This document shows positions 3,539 through 62,697 of a DNA stretch of 64,000 bases, in pieces. The stretch lies in contig JASKKR010000009.1 of assembly GCA_030154085.1 (NCBI GenBank), forward strand, positions 1 to 64,000, written 5' to 3'. This stretch comes from Candidatus Cloacimonadota bacterium. Its GTDB lineage: Bacteria; Cloacimonadota; Cloacimonadia; Cloacimonadales; Cloacimonadaceae. The translations under genes and the position numbers were made by a program. The stretch's first letter is position 1. Each line of letters opens with the position of its first letter. A model generated the notes under the pieces. That model saw nothing but the letters and a program-made list of their open reading frames with translations. It ran no database searches and had not been told where the DNA came from.

Positions 3539-6256
3539 ATGTTGCAGGTTAAGGTTAGAACATTGATAATGGCGCTATTCTTAATGTCCCTATGCAGCGC
3601 ACTGTTTGGATATGATATTTATGTCAATTCATCTGCAGATCCTTTTGTATCGGACGGCACACTACTGAATCCCTTTTCAGAGATTCAGGACGCGGTTGTT
3701 GAGATCGAGGATAAACATGGCTCATATACAATTCACGTGGCTCCAGGAGTCTACGATCCTATCGTGATCTCTGAACCACAGTTCGAGACGTTACGCATTT
3801 TAAGTACAATTCCTCATCATGCTACTATTGATGGTGGCAATACAGCTCCATGTGTAAAGATTAACTTAGCTAAAGAGGTAATCTTAGAAGGATTACTGAT
3901 TCAAAACGGTAACGCTTTTAGTGAATCTATTGATGCAATTAGACATATTTACATTAATACAACTCCACCGCCTCCTTCCGGCGTTCCTCATCACCTGCAA
4001 GGGGTTGAGTTTACGTTCACAAGCCCGGGAGGAGGTATCCAAGTAGTTGACTCAGAAAAAGTAAAGATTATAAATTGCCACATCAGCGGTAATAAAGCAC
4101 ATCATGGTGCTGGTATCTTTGCCCTATGCACGTCAACCACGAATCTTGGTCATCCCCATTATGGCCCACCGAGCTACCTAGAAATTGTGGACAGTAAAAT
4201 ATTTGATAATCATGCTCTTAGCGTTATGGCTAGAGGAGGAGCCCTCGCTTTACATTCTGTCAATACGGACATCAGATCCAGTGAAGTTTATGAAAACAAC
4301 ATTGGAGATGGTAGTACCTACGATCAATGGGGGTGGCCGGAAGAGACAATTAGAATGGATTCATTTTGCGAAGACAACAACTTCTATGTTAATATTGAAG
4401 AAACTATTATCGATAAGAACGTTGCTAGAAAGAATATTATTAACAGCTACGCAGTAGGTGAGCAGTTTAATGTTAGTAAGTCAAATATTGTAGGCAATGC
4501 AACATACAATGGAAATACCGTATACCTATCGACTTTAACTCTTGGATATTTGCGTAGACAAGTAAGTATAATTAACTCGGTTATAACCAACAACTCTTGC
4601 CAGATCACGCCTGACATGAACAATTACCAGGTTAAATCTGGGGGGCCGACATCCTCGATAAGTAAAATCGATATACATATGAAGAATAACTGCATACTTA
4701 ATGCAGATGGGTTAAGTATTGGAGATTATAGTAACCAATCAATCCTTCAAGACAATATTGATGTAAGTCCGCTGTTTAGCGACGTAGACAGCAGAGTCTA
4801 TTCACTCCTTTGGGATCAAAACCAACGTAGCCCTTTAATCAATGCCGGATGTCCAGAGATTGATGGAGTGATTCAAACCGATCCCGATGGTACCCCGCCT
4901 GATATCGGAGCTGTTTATTATCCACATCATCATATGGAGTATTTTCCCATTAATGCTCAACAAAATCCTTCCGGGATCTACTGGCTCTCTTTCCCGGTTG
5001 TCGATGACAGAACTTATGAAAATGGCGTATATTGGAATGAGCTGGGGTATATGTTTGATGCAAACATGCAGGGGCCTCCTGTGTTCCCTTCCCAACTCGA
5101 GCTGATCGATTGGAGTTATGATGGAGAAGATTCTGAAATGGAGTATGACTACTTTACCAGCGACTGGCAGAATTCTGAACACCGAGTCACACAAGCAAAG
5201 GGTTACAAGATCAAGTTCGCTCCCGGAGCCCCGGTTGATCCGGTGATTGTCAATGGATTCCGTGCGTCGTTAAACACTCCGATCAAGTGGGTGGTCTCGG
5301 TTGAGGAAAATGGACAGATGCAGCCTTTTGCAAATCAGATCGGCTATTTTTTGCCGTACACATATCGAGCCGGTGATGCTTTGTCGGCATATCTGCCCGG
5401 CAGCACCCGCTATCGGTATCTGGACTACGTGCACACCATCAAGACCCAAACCTGGAGCACCTATCGGGTATCTGAAGAGCTTGGCAGCCCTTGGGTCATA
5501 GATCCTAATAGCTACACCTTCTCTGAGGGTGATATGGTGGAATTGCTTCTGATTCGCGAAGCTCCTGAGGAGATGTATTGGAGTGGATTTAGCACTCCGC
5601 CGGTGCCTCCAGTAGTGCGACCTCAAGCAGAGGCTTTTGAGTATGAAGAGAAGCTGGATTACAGCACAATATTCATCAGCTTCGATCCGGAAGATATGCC
5701 GGATGAGCTTGGGCTCTTTGTGGATGGAGAATGCCGCGGCGCTGCTGTAGTGGATAGCAGCTTGATCGACGTCTGCCTATATCCGGGTTCTGCCACGGGA
5801 GATTCTGAGCTGGAGATAGTCTTTCATTATGCGAGCAAGGGGAAAAAGGTAGCCAAAGGCTGGCAAGCTTACAATCATGCAAGCATGCTCTTTGAGGAGA
5901 GGAATCTGCATCTTGGAGATCTGGGCAGATTTGGCTACATATCCTTCTCGGAGAAGGCTGGTGAGAGCTTGGTGCCGCTTCAGACCTCACTGATGCAAAA
6001 CTATCCCAATCCCTTCAATCCCATCACGAATATATCCTTTGTGCTAGCCGAGCAAGGCAGCGCAAGAATGGATGTCTACAATCTTCGCGGTCAACGTGTG
6101 AGGACTCTTTTTAATGCAGAGTTTAGCAAAGGCAGGCATACGATAGAGTGGGATGGCAGGGATGACCAACAGCGTCAGCTAGCCTCCGGCATCTATTTCT
6201 ATAGATTGACTACTCCCCAATCGATGTATTCCAAGAAGATGATCTTGATGAAATGA
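3536..6256 (+). CDS. Secreted parallel beta-helix protein with Por-type tail
   Basis: 906 residues from ATG 3536. Residues 1-26 are a signal peptide (VRTLIMALFLMSLCSALFG). DIYVNSSADPF and NPFSEIQDAV begin a DUF1565-like / pectate-lyase-type right-handed beta-helix that runs to about residue 470, with many short N-rich turns. Such proteins bind or cleave polysaccharides, but no catalytic site is evident. A beta-rich middle follows (WLSFPVVDD). The last 85 residues are the FlgD-like sorting tail (NYPNPFNP, VYNLRGQRV, WDGRDD, SGIYFYRL, MILMK). Its start is uncertain: the strong ribosome site serves ATG 3492 in another frame, separated by the 8-G run. The 3' end overlaps the next gene's first possible ATG. 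Confidence 0.8.
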   Translation: MMLQVKVRTLIMALFLMSLCSALFGYDIYVNSSADPFVSDGTLLNPFSEIQDAVVEIEDKHGSYTIHVAPGVYDPIVISEPQFETLRILSTIPHHATIDGGNTAPCVKINLAKEVILEGLLIQNGNAFSESIDAIRHIYINTTPPPPSGVPHHLQGVEFTFTSPGGGIQVVDSEKVKIINCHISGNKAHHGAGIFALCTSTTNLGHPHYGPPSYLEIVDSKIFDNHALSVMARGGALALHSVNTDIRSSEVYENNIGDGSTYDQWGWPEETIRMDSFCEDNNFYVNIEETIIDKNVARKNIINSYAVGEQFNVSKSNIVGNATYNGNTVYLSTLTLGYLRRQVSIINSVITNNSCQITPDMNNYQVKSGGPTSSISKIDIHMKNNCILNADGLSIGDYSNQSILQDNIDVSPLFSDVDSRVYSLLWDQNQRSPLINAGCPEIDGVIQTDPDGTPPDIGAVYYPHHHMEYFPINAQQNPSGIYWLSFPVVDDRTYENGVYWNELGYMFDANMQGPPVFPSQLELIDWSYDGEDSEMEYDYFTSDWQNSEHRVTQAKGYKIKFAPGAPVDPVIVNGFRASLNTPIKWVVSVEENGQMQPFANQIGYFLPYTYRAGDALSAYLPGSTRYRYLDYVHTIKTQTWSTYRVSEELGSPWVIDPNSYTFSEGDMVELLLIREAPEEMYWSGFSTPPVPPVVRPQAEAFEYEEKLDYSTIFISFDPEDMPDELGLFVDGECRGAAVVDSSLIDVCLYPGSATGDSELEIVFHYASKGKKVAKGWQAYNHASMLFEERNLHLGDLGRFGYISFSEKAGESLVPLQTSLMQNYPNPFNPITNISFVLAEQGSARMDVYNLRGQRVRTLFNAEFSKGRHTIEWDGRDDQQRQLASGIYFYRLTTPQSMYSKKMILMK

Positions 6257-26560: not shown

Positions 26561-26674
26561 CTTGCGAATGTCCTTCACAAAGCTGTAACTCCTTATTTTC
26601 CCGTTTCTTGCTCACTTCTCAAAGGGGAGAGAAACGGGGGAGGCGGCAAGTGCCCTACTTTTGCAAACACTTAG
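26561..26674 (+). repeat. Structured dispersed repeat, copy 1
   Basis: 114 bp that recurs at 47998-48111 with 13 differences and no gap. Outer stem CTTGC (26561-26565) with GCAAG (26646-26650); inner stem CCCGTTTCT (26600-26608) with AGAAACGGG (26630-26638). The stretch between the stems and the trailing GTGCCCTACTTTTGCA are strongly conserved. In copy 2 the outer stem changes on both sides and stays paired. This suggests a structured RNA or a palindromic mobile repeat, not leftover coding sequence. Confidence 0.7.
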
Positions 26675-26847
26675 GCAGGTTAAAATTCAGGTGATAATAT
26701 TGGGAGATTTTGTCAAATTCTAAAATAAGGATGGTTCGAATTTTTTTAAGGGAATGGCAAATCACGCGCTGATCCATCAAAATCAGATAAGCAAAGTTCC
26801 AATCCGAGATGAGGTTCATAGAATTAGTGGGTTGATGAATTTCAGGC

Positions 26848-44658: not shown

Positions 44659-45690
44659 GTGAAAAAACAGATTATCCTGCTCCTCGCAATAGCTGTAGTT
44701 CTGCTGCCTGTATGCCTCAATGCAAAGATCTTTGGCAAAGTTGGAACCGTAGGTTTGCAGTTTCTAAAGCTGGGCGTGGATGCTCGTGCCATTGGTATGG
44801 GTGAAGCCTATACTGCTGTTTCGGACGACATTTCCTCCGTCTATTGGAATCCTGCCGGCTTGGCACCAGCATTTCAAAATCAAGTATTCTTTTCCCATAC
44901 AAATTGGCCTGCCGATATTATGCATGAATTTGTAGCTGCTACCTATACCACTGGCGTGTCTACTTTTGCACTTTACGGCTCGGTCTTGCATATGGATAAA
45001 ATGGAAGTTACTGATGAAGATACATTTGGCCATACGGGTGAGTATTTCACAAACAGTAGTGTAGCTTTAGGCGTAAATTACGCCCAACAGTTCACCGACA
45101 AATTCTCTGCCGGAATCGGAGTAAAGTATCTTCGCGAAAACCTCTATGAGTTTAATGTAAACAGCTATGCTGTTGATCTTGGTTCGATGTACAATACCGG
45201 TTGGCAAAACATCAAGATAGGCATGGCTTTGAAAAACTTCGGTCCGGACATCAGATATCGCGTAGACAATGATGATGATAGTCAGACTGATGAAGACCCC
45301 TTTGATCTTTTTGATAATGACGGCGATGGAGTCATAGATGAAGATGGTGCAGAACTTGATGTAAAGATCCCGATGAACTTCTCTTTGGGAGTTTCAGGTG
45401 ATCTGATGCGCACTGAAACCAATTATTGGATCGCTTCATTGCAATTGGATAACGTTATCGATCGTACAGAAACTTGGAACTTAGGAACCGAGTATAAAAT
45501 GGGGAACATATTCCTACGCTGTGGCTATCAGTTTAATTATGATGCGGCAAGCTATAGCTTAGGTGCTGGATGGCAAGTCCCCACCAATATCGGCATCTTC
45601 AATATCGATTATGCCTATACTGATATGGGCTATTTGGCTGAATCAATGCTAAAGAGTGCACATCGTGTGTCTCTCAAGCTTAGATACTAA
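44659..45690 (+). CDS. PorV-like outer membrane protein with calcium-loop insertion
   Basis: 343 residues from GTG 44659 (GGGAGGAATT upstream). Signal peptide 1-22. GLQFLKLGVDARAIGMGEAY and SSVYWNPAGLA are the PorV/UPF0164 signature. An acidic insertion, DNDGDGVIDEDGAELD after DDDSQTDEDPFD, interrupts the barrel region and looks like a calcium site. Ends RVSLKLRY, a typical last outer-membrane strand. PorV carries cargo between the translocon and the attachment machinery in type IX secretion; its place between two tail-bearing genes suggests that it serves them. Confidence 0.85.
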   Translation: MKKQIILLLAIAVVLLPVCLNAKIFGKVGTVGLQFLKLGVDARAIGMGEAYTAVSDDISSVYWNPAGLAPAFQNQVFFSHTNWPADIMHEFVAATYTTGVSTFALYGSVLHMDKMEVTDEDTFGHTGEYFTNSSVALGVNYAQQFTDKFSAGIGVKYLRENLYEFNVNSYAVDLGSMYNTGWQNIKIGMALKNFGPDIRYRVDNDDDSQTDEDPFDLFDNDGDGVIDEDGAELDVKIPMNFSLGVSGDLMRTETNYWIASLQLDNVIDRTETWNLGTEYKMGNIFLRCGYQFNYDAASYSLGAGWQVPTNIGIFNIDYAYTDMGYLAESMLKSAHRVSLKLRY

Positions 45691-45719
45691 TGAACATGAA
45701 TAAAAAAAATGGAGGAACG

Positions 45720-47897
45720 ATGAAAAAAGTTCTCTTACTCACCTTATGCCTCTGCTTCGTAGTGGGTGCATTGCTCGCAAAACCAATGCAAGCCGATCAC
45801 GCACGAGAAGCTCTCGAAGCCCCAGGACAGATAACACGTATCAGTCGTCCTGACATCAACGCTCCGAATTTCAATTTTACTGTGAATCCTACCGTACTCA
45901 TGGAAAGCTACTATGACTACATGATCGGAAGTTACAATGGTATACCTATGCGTGTGATCCCAAGTGATGATGGTGGATATTTCCTTACTTTCCACGGAAA
46001 GAATTCATCTTCCACAGAAGAAAAACGTCGCGTATTCTATGCGCACATCGATGCAGCTGGTAACGTTGTAAACCAAAATGTAATCACTAATTCGGAAAAC
46101 ACCGAAGGGTATCCCACAATCGGCGTGGACCCTATAAGTACAAAACCGATGTACGCTTGGCATGCAAATTCTGATACTGATGCTGAGAATGAAGTAGAAT
46201 TTACTTCTGATGCTTTTTTGTTTGGTTCTTCTGGGATGTTCAACATAGTATCAACTATAGTGGACAATCCACTGCAAGTGCTAATAGATGGTTCTGTTGC
46301 CTCGGCAGACAACGAATTTATTTGGCCTACCATTGAGATCGGACCTTCTCCTGTTGACGGAATGCGTAGAGTCTATGTGGCAAATCGCAATTTTGTGACT
46401 CATAACAGCACGGATGCTCCAAGCGAAAATGTCTTGATTGCCTATGCTGATTTTAATGGTGCTATGATCGAACAAGGAACATCTCTGGCATGGAGCTACA
46501 CTACCATCCCAATGATGGACGAATGGAATCATGATGTCGATTGGCGTCGTCCTTTCCATGCCATCACAGCAGATGATCTTGGTAATCTTTACTATGCAGG
46601 TTACCACTTTGCTTATGATCCCAACGACGTAATGATCGAGGAGCCCAATATGGATATCTTTATGTGTCCGAACTACGGTGAAGGCGAATGGGTACATCTG
46701 ACAGCTTACGATCGCATCCCTACTTACAATCCTCCTGGAACCCCCGGTGGCACAGGATACTTTGTAGGTGATGGAGACATTCCTTATGATGATAGCGAAT
46801 TATTCTGGGGTATTGTAAATTCCAGTCACCTCAATGCTGTGACTGATAATAGTGGCAGAATCCTTTTCCCCAGTTTGTTTTCTGTAAATGTAACCACAGG
46901 TGGATATTATCCTGCTTTTCATACGGTTAAGAATGTGATATATGATCCTGCAACTGATGAATTCAGTATCAAGGAAGTTTATCCGCGTAAGAATCCTGCT
47001 GATGATTTCAACGAAGCCTATACTCCTTGGGATCTCGAAGCACCTTGGGGAGTACCTGAATATTACGAAGGTTCGGATGGCGGAATGTATCTTGCACCTG
47101 AATTGATCTGGCCATTCCCACACTGGGATGATACTCTTCACACTGATAGCATGATGTTTCACTATAACAACATCAAGATCACTGAGCCTAACGAAGAAGG
47201 TCTTGTGGTCATGGTTTGGCAAGATGCTATGCGCGCCAGAGACTACAACAAATATCCAGATTCATATCCTGAACTTGCCCCCTTTGCAGACACTCCCGAG
47301 ATTTTCATCTCTGTGAGCAATGACAATGGAAATACTTGGTATGATCCAATAATTCTGAACAAAATAGAAACTACAGAATTATCTGGAATCAAACCTATGT
47401 GGGTTTATCCTGCTGACAAAGTCATCACCACTGGGAAAAATGATCAAGGCTTCTATACTGGCAAGATTGGACTCATGTTCTATAATGATTACACTTGGGG
47501 CTCCAATGTTCACGTCCCACCGGCTCACTCAGTCAACGATGGTGGAGCAGTAATGTTTACCGAACTTGAGATTGTATTTGGTGAAGGTACTCCTAATATT
47601 GATCCTACTACACCTGTTGTGGAACGCATCCTGAACCAAAATTATCCGAATCCCTTCAATCCGGAAACCACAATCAGCTTTGATATGCCTGTCAACGGCA
47701 AAGCCAAACTGGACATCTACAACGTTAAAGGTCAGCTCGTGAAGACCCTTTTCAATGGCGATGCCAATATTGGAAGAACCAGCATCGTATGGGATAGCAC
47801 TGACAATAACGGCAATGCTGTTACCAGCGGTATCTATTTCTATCGTCTGAGCACAGATAATCATACTGAAACTCGCAAAATGATGCTGATGAAATAA
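45720..47897 (+). CDS. Secreted protein with Por-type sorting tail
   Basis: 725 residues from ATG 45720 (GGAGGAACG upstream; the frame opens at 45690). Signal peptide 1-20 (VLLLTLCLCFVVGALLA). The body is probably a beta-propeller-like or sialidase-like fold: repeated strands with EIFISVSNDNGNTWYDPIIL, reminiscent of BNR/Asp-box text (S.D.G.TW). The tail is canonical: QNYPNPFNPETTISFDMP, KLDIYNVKGQLVKTLF, GIYFYRL and MMLMK. Last gene before the terminator. Confidence 0.82.
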   Translation: MKKVLLLTLCLCFVVGALLAKPMQADHAREALEAPGQITRISRPDINAPNFNFTVNPTVLMESYYDYMIGSYNGIPMRVIPSDDGGYFLTFHGKNSSSTEEKRRVFYAHIDAAGNVVNQNVITNSENTEGYPTIGVDPISTKPMYAWHANSDTDAENEVEFTSDAFLFGSSGMFNIVSTIVDNPLQVLIDGSVASADNEFIWPTIEIGPSPVDGMRRVYVANRNFVTHNSTDAPSENVLIAYADFNGAMIEQGTSLAWSYTTIPMMDEWNHDVDWRRPFHAITADDLGNLYYAGYHFAYDPNDVMIEEPNMDIFMCPNYGEGEWVHLTAYDRIPTYNPPGTPGGTGYFVGDGDIPYDDSELFWGIVNSSHLNAVTDNSGRILFPSLFSVNVTTGGYYPAFHTVKNVIYDPATDEFSIKEVYPRKNPADDFNEAYTPWDLEAPWGVPEYYEGSDGGMYLAPELIWPFPHWDDTLHTDSMMFHYNNIKITEPNEEGLVVMVWQDAMRARDYNKYPDSYPELAPFADTPEIFISVSNDNGNTWYDPIILNKIETTELSGIKPMWVYPADKVITTGKNDQGFYTGKIGLMFYNDYTWGSNVHVPPAHSVNDGGAVMFTELEIVFGEGTPNIDPTTPVVERILNQNYPNPFNPETTISFDMPVNGKAKLDIYNVKGQLVKTLFNGDANIGRTSIVWDSTDNNGNAVTSGIYFYRLSTDNHTETRKMMLMK

Positions 47898-47997: not shown

Positions 47998-48111
47998 CTT
48001 AACAATGTCCTTCACAAAGCTGTAATTCCTTATTTTCTCGTTTCTTGCTCACTTCTCAAATGGGGAAGAAACGGGGGAGGCGTTAAGTGCCCTACTTTTG
48101 CAGGGACTTAG
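47998..48111 (+). repeat. Structured dispersed repeat, copy 2
   Basis: 114 bp matching 26561-26674 at 101 positions. Outer stem CTTAAC (47998-48003) with GTTAAG (48082-48087); it extends outward to nine pairs with GCG and TGC. Inner stem CTCGTTTCT (48037-48045) with AGAAACGGG (48067-48075), where a C-G of copy 1 becomes U-G. It lies just after the operon terminator, in the same orientation as copy 1. Confidence 0.7.
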
Positions 48112-48175
48112 AGCCGGGGCAAACTACATCACTAACCAGCGCACCCCGATTCATGGTTGCCGACCAAGATGAATT

Positions 48176-48452
48176 CCGGTTGGTTTTAACCACCGGCAAT
48201 AGGAGTAGTGAACCAAATCTTTCCACATCTTTTGACCGGACCGCTTTTGCCGGTGACTAAAGTCCACCGGAAATCATCTTATTTGTAGAATCGGATCACA
48301 TGGGATACGGTGGCTAAAGCACACCGCCTATCATCTTATACACTCATATCGATGGAGAAGACATATTCTCTATATTGGATACGGTGGCTAAAGCACACCG
48401 CCTATCATCTTATACCCCGGATTGGGTCACAATGGGCTACGGTGGCGAATAT
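48176..48452 (+). repeat. Cluster of palindromic hairpins and a 38-bp direct repeat
   Basis: Four palindromes: 48176-48196 (CCGGT...ACCGG), 48250-48270 (CCGGTG-AC-TAAA-GT-C-CACCGG), 48308-48326 and 48382-48400 (CGGTG-GC-TAAA-GC-A-CACCG). A truncated fifth begins at 48440. The third and fourth belong to an identical 38-bp repeat, 48303-48340 and 48377-48414. Stem pairs differ but stay complementary (GC/GC against AC/GT) and the TAAA loop and 3' bulge are kept. No gene is carried; likely a REP-like palindromic family. Confidence 0.65.
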
Positions 48453-62529: not shown

Positions 62530-62697
62530 CACACAGATTCCGCAGATTACACAGATTTATAAAGTATATAAGTCCACAGATTACCACAGATTTTCACAGA
62601 TTTATATAGTATATATGTCCACAGATTACCACAGATTACCACAGATTTATAAAGTATATAAGTCCACAGATTTCCACAGATTACCACAGATTTTTTG
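62530..62697 (+). repeat. CACAGATT repeat array with a 45-bp higher-order unit
   Basis: Many copies of CACAGATT spaced 9-10 bases. A larger unit (ACAGATTTATAWAGTATAT, AWGTCCACAGATT) begins at 62551, 62596 and 62641, that is every 45 bases. Similar CACAGATT text ends the coding sequence of the next gene. 62698-62820 shows nothing more than the ribosome-site region for that gene. Confidence 0.85.

Follow-up and report, generated by a model that had tools for sequence, protein, structure and literature searches.

The 114-bp repeat that occurs twice in the window, the whole 64,000-nt stretch of DNA that was analysed, belongs to an intergenic hairpin element that is present in at least 104 copies in the same genome, and these copies show mutual avoidance over a range of about 9 kb. 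The initial annotation, which was a reading of the single window, missed both the family and this mutual avoidance. Hairpins with the same 11-nt build and intergenic location are present in related genomes, where sequences change fast between species, several unrelated families occur per genome, and elements avoid each other over about 7-10 kb, both within and between families. Spacing and architecture are reported below as observed, and the function that we assign to the elements is proposed from them.

The genome of the window (G000; 1.95 Mb in 42 contigs, 99.75% complete, with the window corresponding to contig C33), which a protein match assigns to Cloacimonadota, carries at least 104 distinct copies of the approximately 110-bp element when pattern and covariance-model searches are pooled. 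Taken separately, BLAST returned more than 40 copies and the pattern search 109 places; a scan of the genome contigs with an exact pattern gave no match. The conserved core begins approximately 35 bases upstream of the GTTTCTTGC motif and ends 72 bases downstream of it. Beyond this core, sequence is common to subfamilies only, and these flanks have diverged with the core kept; some copies have flanks in common. All 103 copies checked were outside open reading frames (ORFs) and none was inside a long ORF, a count that is based on plain ORFs as gene calls, a few of which could be wrong. Flanking genes of the 103 copies analysed were arranged as +- (32), ++ (19), -- (19), and -+ (18), with no orientation bias relative to flanking genes or transcription direction (19 ++ versus 19 --). 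There was also no bias relative to GC skew (52 to 47 copies), and a replication-polar element was rejected on this basis. Only ordinary genes recur beside the copies, which argues against a conserved neighbour gene as a partner. The coordinates of both window copies and their parts are listed in the table.

Table. Features of the repeat element in the window.
Feature	Position	Strand	Basis or remark
Element copy 1	26567..26680	+	Covariance-model bounds; cmsearch R1, 124.2 bits
Copy 1, strongly conserved part	about 26573-26674	+	Conservation profile
Element copy 2	48004..48117	+	cmsearch R1, 120.3 bits; 21.4 kb from copy 1
5' arm of the first stem in the initial annotation	26561..26566	+	Outside the conserved element
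Three degenerate 11-nt units, left arm (CTCCTTATTTT, CCCGTTTCTTG, CTCACTTCTCA)	26589..26621	+	Left-arm self-match
Two inverted 11-nt units, right arm (AAAGGGGAGAG, AAACGGGGGAG)	26621..26642	+	Right-arm self-match and direct reading
Copy 1 main hairpin, left arm	26597..26614	+	Columns 35-52 of alignment A1; two-sided changes between species
Copy 1 main hairpin, right arm (more variable arm)	26624..26641	+	Columns 62-79 of A1
Copy 2 main hairpin, left arm	48034..48051	+	Columns 35-52 of A1
Copy 2 main hairpin, right arm	48061..48078	+	Columns 62-79 of A1
3' segment	26643..26674	+	AAGTG/CACTT self-pairing possible, or partial pairing with 5' segment; covariation not above chance

The 104 copies form 71 within-contig gaps with a median of 14.4 kb; the minimum is 7.36 kb and the next smallest gap is 9.18 kb. 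Only one gap is below 9 kb compared to 35.9 expected under uniform random placement of 104 copies, and the lowest value among 5000 random placements was 20. Placement in intergenic DNA only should not create a 9-kb limit, because intergenic DNA recurs about every kilobase.

Aligned to each other, the two window copies (26561-26674 and 47998-48111) show no gaps and exactly 13 differences, as initially reported, and a chance match is excluded. Five of these differences had been interpreted as compensatory changes in two stems, of which the second proved to form the tip of a genuine hairpin with 18 pairs and the first is not supported beyond chance. In the first stem, CTTGC/GCAAG (26561-26565 with 26646-26650), all five pairs are kept in only 3 of 99 copies, and pairing across these copies is at shuffle level (249 paired cells versus 244 expected; maximum of 266 in 2000 shuffles), so this stem was ruled out. 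The C-G to U-G change at 26601/26637, in the second stem, was confirmed; this pair (columns 39/75) is C-G in 45, U-G in 31, U-A in 20, and C-A in 3 of the 99 copies.

In alignment A1, which comprises 99 copies from G000, 91.6% of cells in the 18-pair hairpin are paired. Within this genome, a two-sided change was seen at one hairpin pair only, and pairing was not above that of shuffled alignments (71 of 500 shuffles reached the observed value). In A2, a joint alignment of three species (G000, G010, and G009), two-sided changes were found at 9 of 18 stem pairs, with 44 two-sided cells versus 21.5 after shuffling, a value reached in 0 of 500 shuffles. These between-species changes support a structured hairpin. 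Covariation had been cited as a sign of selected structure, but most of the two-copy covariation on which this argument was built is attributable to chance. Other helices considered (the 5' with the 3' segment, a 3' hairpin, and an outer stem) were rejected, with no clear excess over chance. Since template switching can restore the complementarity of a palindrome without selection, and 11-nt units can be homogenized, two-sided changes alone are no proof of selection on RNA.

The hairpin arms are built from 11-nt units, a length of approximately one helical turn and one turn of an A-form helix. When the arms of 97 G000 copies were matched to themselves, the signal peaked at a shift of 11 in both the left (0.50) and right arm (0.61), although it was weaker in G000 than in the elements of G012 or G014. 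A hairpin scan of stretches of five related genomes (G006, G012, G013, G014, and G018) identified 43 strong hairpins, 38 of which had a best arm self-repeat of exactly 11 nt. In a 100-kb E. coli control, 0 of 9 hairpins had an 11-nt arm repeat.

Within the genus, approximately 47 copies of the main family, with their own consensus, were found in G010 and one copy in G009, and in 8 of 11 congeners the family was not detected. Both the number of copies and their sequence are species-specific. The genus can thus do without the main family, unless every congener has a family of its own. The single clear copy in G011 (L032, contig C16) looks identical, flanks included, to a copy in G000 (L105, contig C38) and probably lies on a contig that was wrongly placed in the bin of G011.

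The complete genome of a member of a different genus (G020; a single contig of 2,246,820 bp) has a main family with TTACCCATTGC units that comprises 44 hairpins. No two of these lie closer together than 10.55 kb (P = 5e-5 for random placement), and their left arm is almost constant, whereas the right arm varies. Elements occur about once per 17-19 kb in G000 and once per 51 kb in G020, with about the same minimum gap. Two 200-kb stretches of G020 (400 kb), selected because they appeared empty, contained two further families with TTCCCATATCG and CACTTCCGTAA units. Together, the three families contribute 14 elements to these 400 kb, with a smallest gap of 10.6 kb, and the stretches still include gaps of 63 kb and 90 kb. 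Either orientation of the hairpin loop, CGGATGGCATTAG or CTAATGCCATCCG, occurs in G020 (L253-L282), as though the middle of the palindrome could invert.

Unrelated families also coexist in other relatives. G012 has three, one of which consists of 94-nt near-perfect palindromes with compensated arm changes, as seen in family a; G014 has at least six different unit sequences. In the scanned stretches of the five genomes named above, 2 gaps were shorter than 6.9 kb compared to 12.4 expected, and the closer pairs were 3.3 kb apart in G014 and 6.3 kb apart in G018. Upstream of mraZ, several relatives carry hairpins that are unrelated in sequence and have arms with 11-nt repeats. The same intergenic gap is occupied across species upstream of mraZ (L106, L215, and L263), upstream of htpX (L131, L216, and L267), and downstream of rpsG (L016 and L259). 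Positional orthology at these gaps is only suggestive, because confinement of the elements to intergenic DNA raises the chance of sharing.

Our preferred explanation, which we hold with somewhat less than even confidence, is that the repeat is a hairpin-forming chromosomal site that acts at the DNA level, is read by its shape and helical phase, and is kept apart through a role in chromosome organisation. The class to which it belongs comprises intergenic quasi-palindromes of roughly 40-110 bp with arms of tandem 11-nt units. Whatever uses these sites may recognise shape and helical phase, as an extruded cruciform or a phased array, and not one sequence. New sites would spread by copying and would be retained only at a sufficient distance from their neighbours, since a single site could serve some 10-20 kb, for instance by marking a supercoiling or loop domain. 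The 63- and 90-kb gaps mean that a rule by which every domain needs one element does not hold in G020. This incomplete coverage, the closer pairs at 3.3 and 6.3 kb, template switching, and the failure to detect the main family in 8 of 11 congeners were all counted against the chromosomal-site explanation. A still more tentative extension is that Cloacimonadota chromosomes have an undescribed layer of organisation, in which hairpin sites defined by architecture and drawn from many unrelated families, at least ~7-10 kb apart, may serve as spaced structural marks.

The initial annotation had proposed a candidate RNA motif, and the elements could be transcribed from promoters of their own, as small structured RNAs or as hairpins for RNA processing. 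The two-sided changes in A2 are in keeping with this, as is the predominance of G-U over A-C among departures from pairing in G000 (for example, 31 U-G versus 3 C-A at columns 39/75). The G-U preference is absent in G020, however, where G-T (126) and A-C (110) are almost equal. Neither window copy has a gathering-level Rfam match, and the relatives' elements have no credible match at E <= 0.1, so a tRNA or other Rfam RNA was rejected. With a weak fold (z = -1.2 for copy 1), no preference for transcription direction, and a kilobase spacing that is a property of DNA position and that an RNA role leaves without a reason, the RNA motif was not established, and we consider this explanation improbable. 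We regard as slightly less probable again that each family is a phased binding array for a dedicated DNA-binding protein of the iteron, parC, or nucleoid-occlusion type. Phased 11-bp direct repeats are indeed present in the arms, and an almost invariant left arm beside a varying right arm in G020 is consistent with protein binding, but several unlike families per genome would require several proteins, and spacing between families would be unexplained. Plasmid iterons and parC (11-bp repeats in R1) occupy a single plasmid locus and are bound by one protein; the direct repeats here are similar in length but are inverted into hairpins at ~100 loci with many sequences.

A more serious competitor, although one that we rate as doubtful, is that the elements are mobile hairpins of a non-autonomous kind, and that the putative enzyme moving them steers clear of DNA close to a copy already in place, a form of target immunity acting over ~9 kb. 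The near-even spacing would then, with the same doubt, be the footprint of insertion towards saturation, with different families sharing machinery. A minimum gap that is about equal at the different densities of G000 and G020, species-specific copy number and sequence, and the flanks common to some copies all favour mobility, and the initial suggestion of hairpin-forming mobile DNA is closer to our data than that of an RNA. The transposon ends, target duplications, and transposase sought in support of it were not found: by eye, no target or other direct duplications were noticed in the flanks, no terminal repeats common to all families were found, no copy is inside an ORF, and no transposase gene recurs beside the copies, several of which lie near contig ends. 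A Y1 transposase (Y1_Tnp, PF01797; RAYT) is likewise lacking from the 99.75% complete G000, which led us to reject a RAYT/IS200 origin, and Y1_Tnp genes occur in some of the congeners where the main family went undetected. The target immunity of Mu, Tn7, and Tn3 is known for large transposons and, as in known AAA+ systems, is restricted to the ends of the element concerned; it resembles the exclusion zone around each copy here, except that unlike families also avoid each other. The chromosomal-site and mobile-hairpin explanations are the two that survive.

Palindromes scattered between genes are already known as a type of element. The REP/BIME/REPIN elements associated with RAYT are likewise dispersed, intergenic, palindromic, present in many copies, and species-specific in sequence, and differ from those described here, which have arms of 11-nt units, avoid each other over ~9 kb, and occur in a genome without a Y1 transposase. 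Known REPs often form composite clusters with alternating orientation (PMC2817692; REPINs, PMC3116915). Copies here are neither paired nor clustered: the two nearest lie 7.4 kb apart in G000, and in G020 the smallest distance is 10.55 kb. MITEs and other non-autonomous transposons similarly occur as many short gene-less copies, in contrast to which no target duplication, common terminal repeats, or donor transposase was found here, and ORFs are free of copies. The sites of parS, matS, Noc, and SlmA are dispersed, cis-acting chromosome sites that are short and fixed in sequence. The Cloacimonadota hairpins are also dispersed on one chromosome but keep their architecture and not their sequence, and we know of no minimum spacing for those sites. 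Nor do we know of a repeat family described as keeping such a distance with unlike sequences included, and no published description was found in the mainly open-access literature searched. To our knowledge, the 11-nt-unit class with distance keeping between families is new.

From a distance rule that holds across unrelated sequences, it follows that hairpin-bearing DNA is sensed over about 10 kb, either by the cell or by a mobile element. If the elements are functional, chromosome domains would be marked directly in sequence across a whole bacterial group; if they are mobile, they would have an exclusion system for elements of ~100 bases, for which we know of no counterpart.

Several copies are close to contig ends in the G000 assembly, and contig pairs (L009/L012 and L010/L013; contigs C10, C1, C36, and C5) begin in the same sequence 45-110 bp past an element. 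A long repeat beside some copies, absent from the assembly, may be present there and may include an autonomous relative. Just after element copy 2, three degenerate copies of the repeat CGGTGGCTAAAGCACACCGCCTATCATCTTATA occur at 48243-48415 with spacings of 57 and 74 nt, and an interspersed repeat of this type (88% match) lies beside another element copy (L011). Elsewhere in the window, nested direct repeats CACAGATTT/CCACAGATTA with a period of about 45 nt were observed at 62550-62693. Coding sequence for a C-terminal sorting domain of type IX-like secreted proteins is repeated at 2518-2560, 5998-6040, and 47639-47681, and the gene at 45690-47897, which contains the last of these, has a Por_Secre_tail match.
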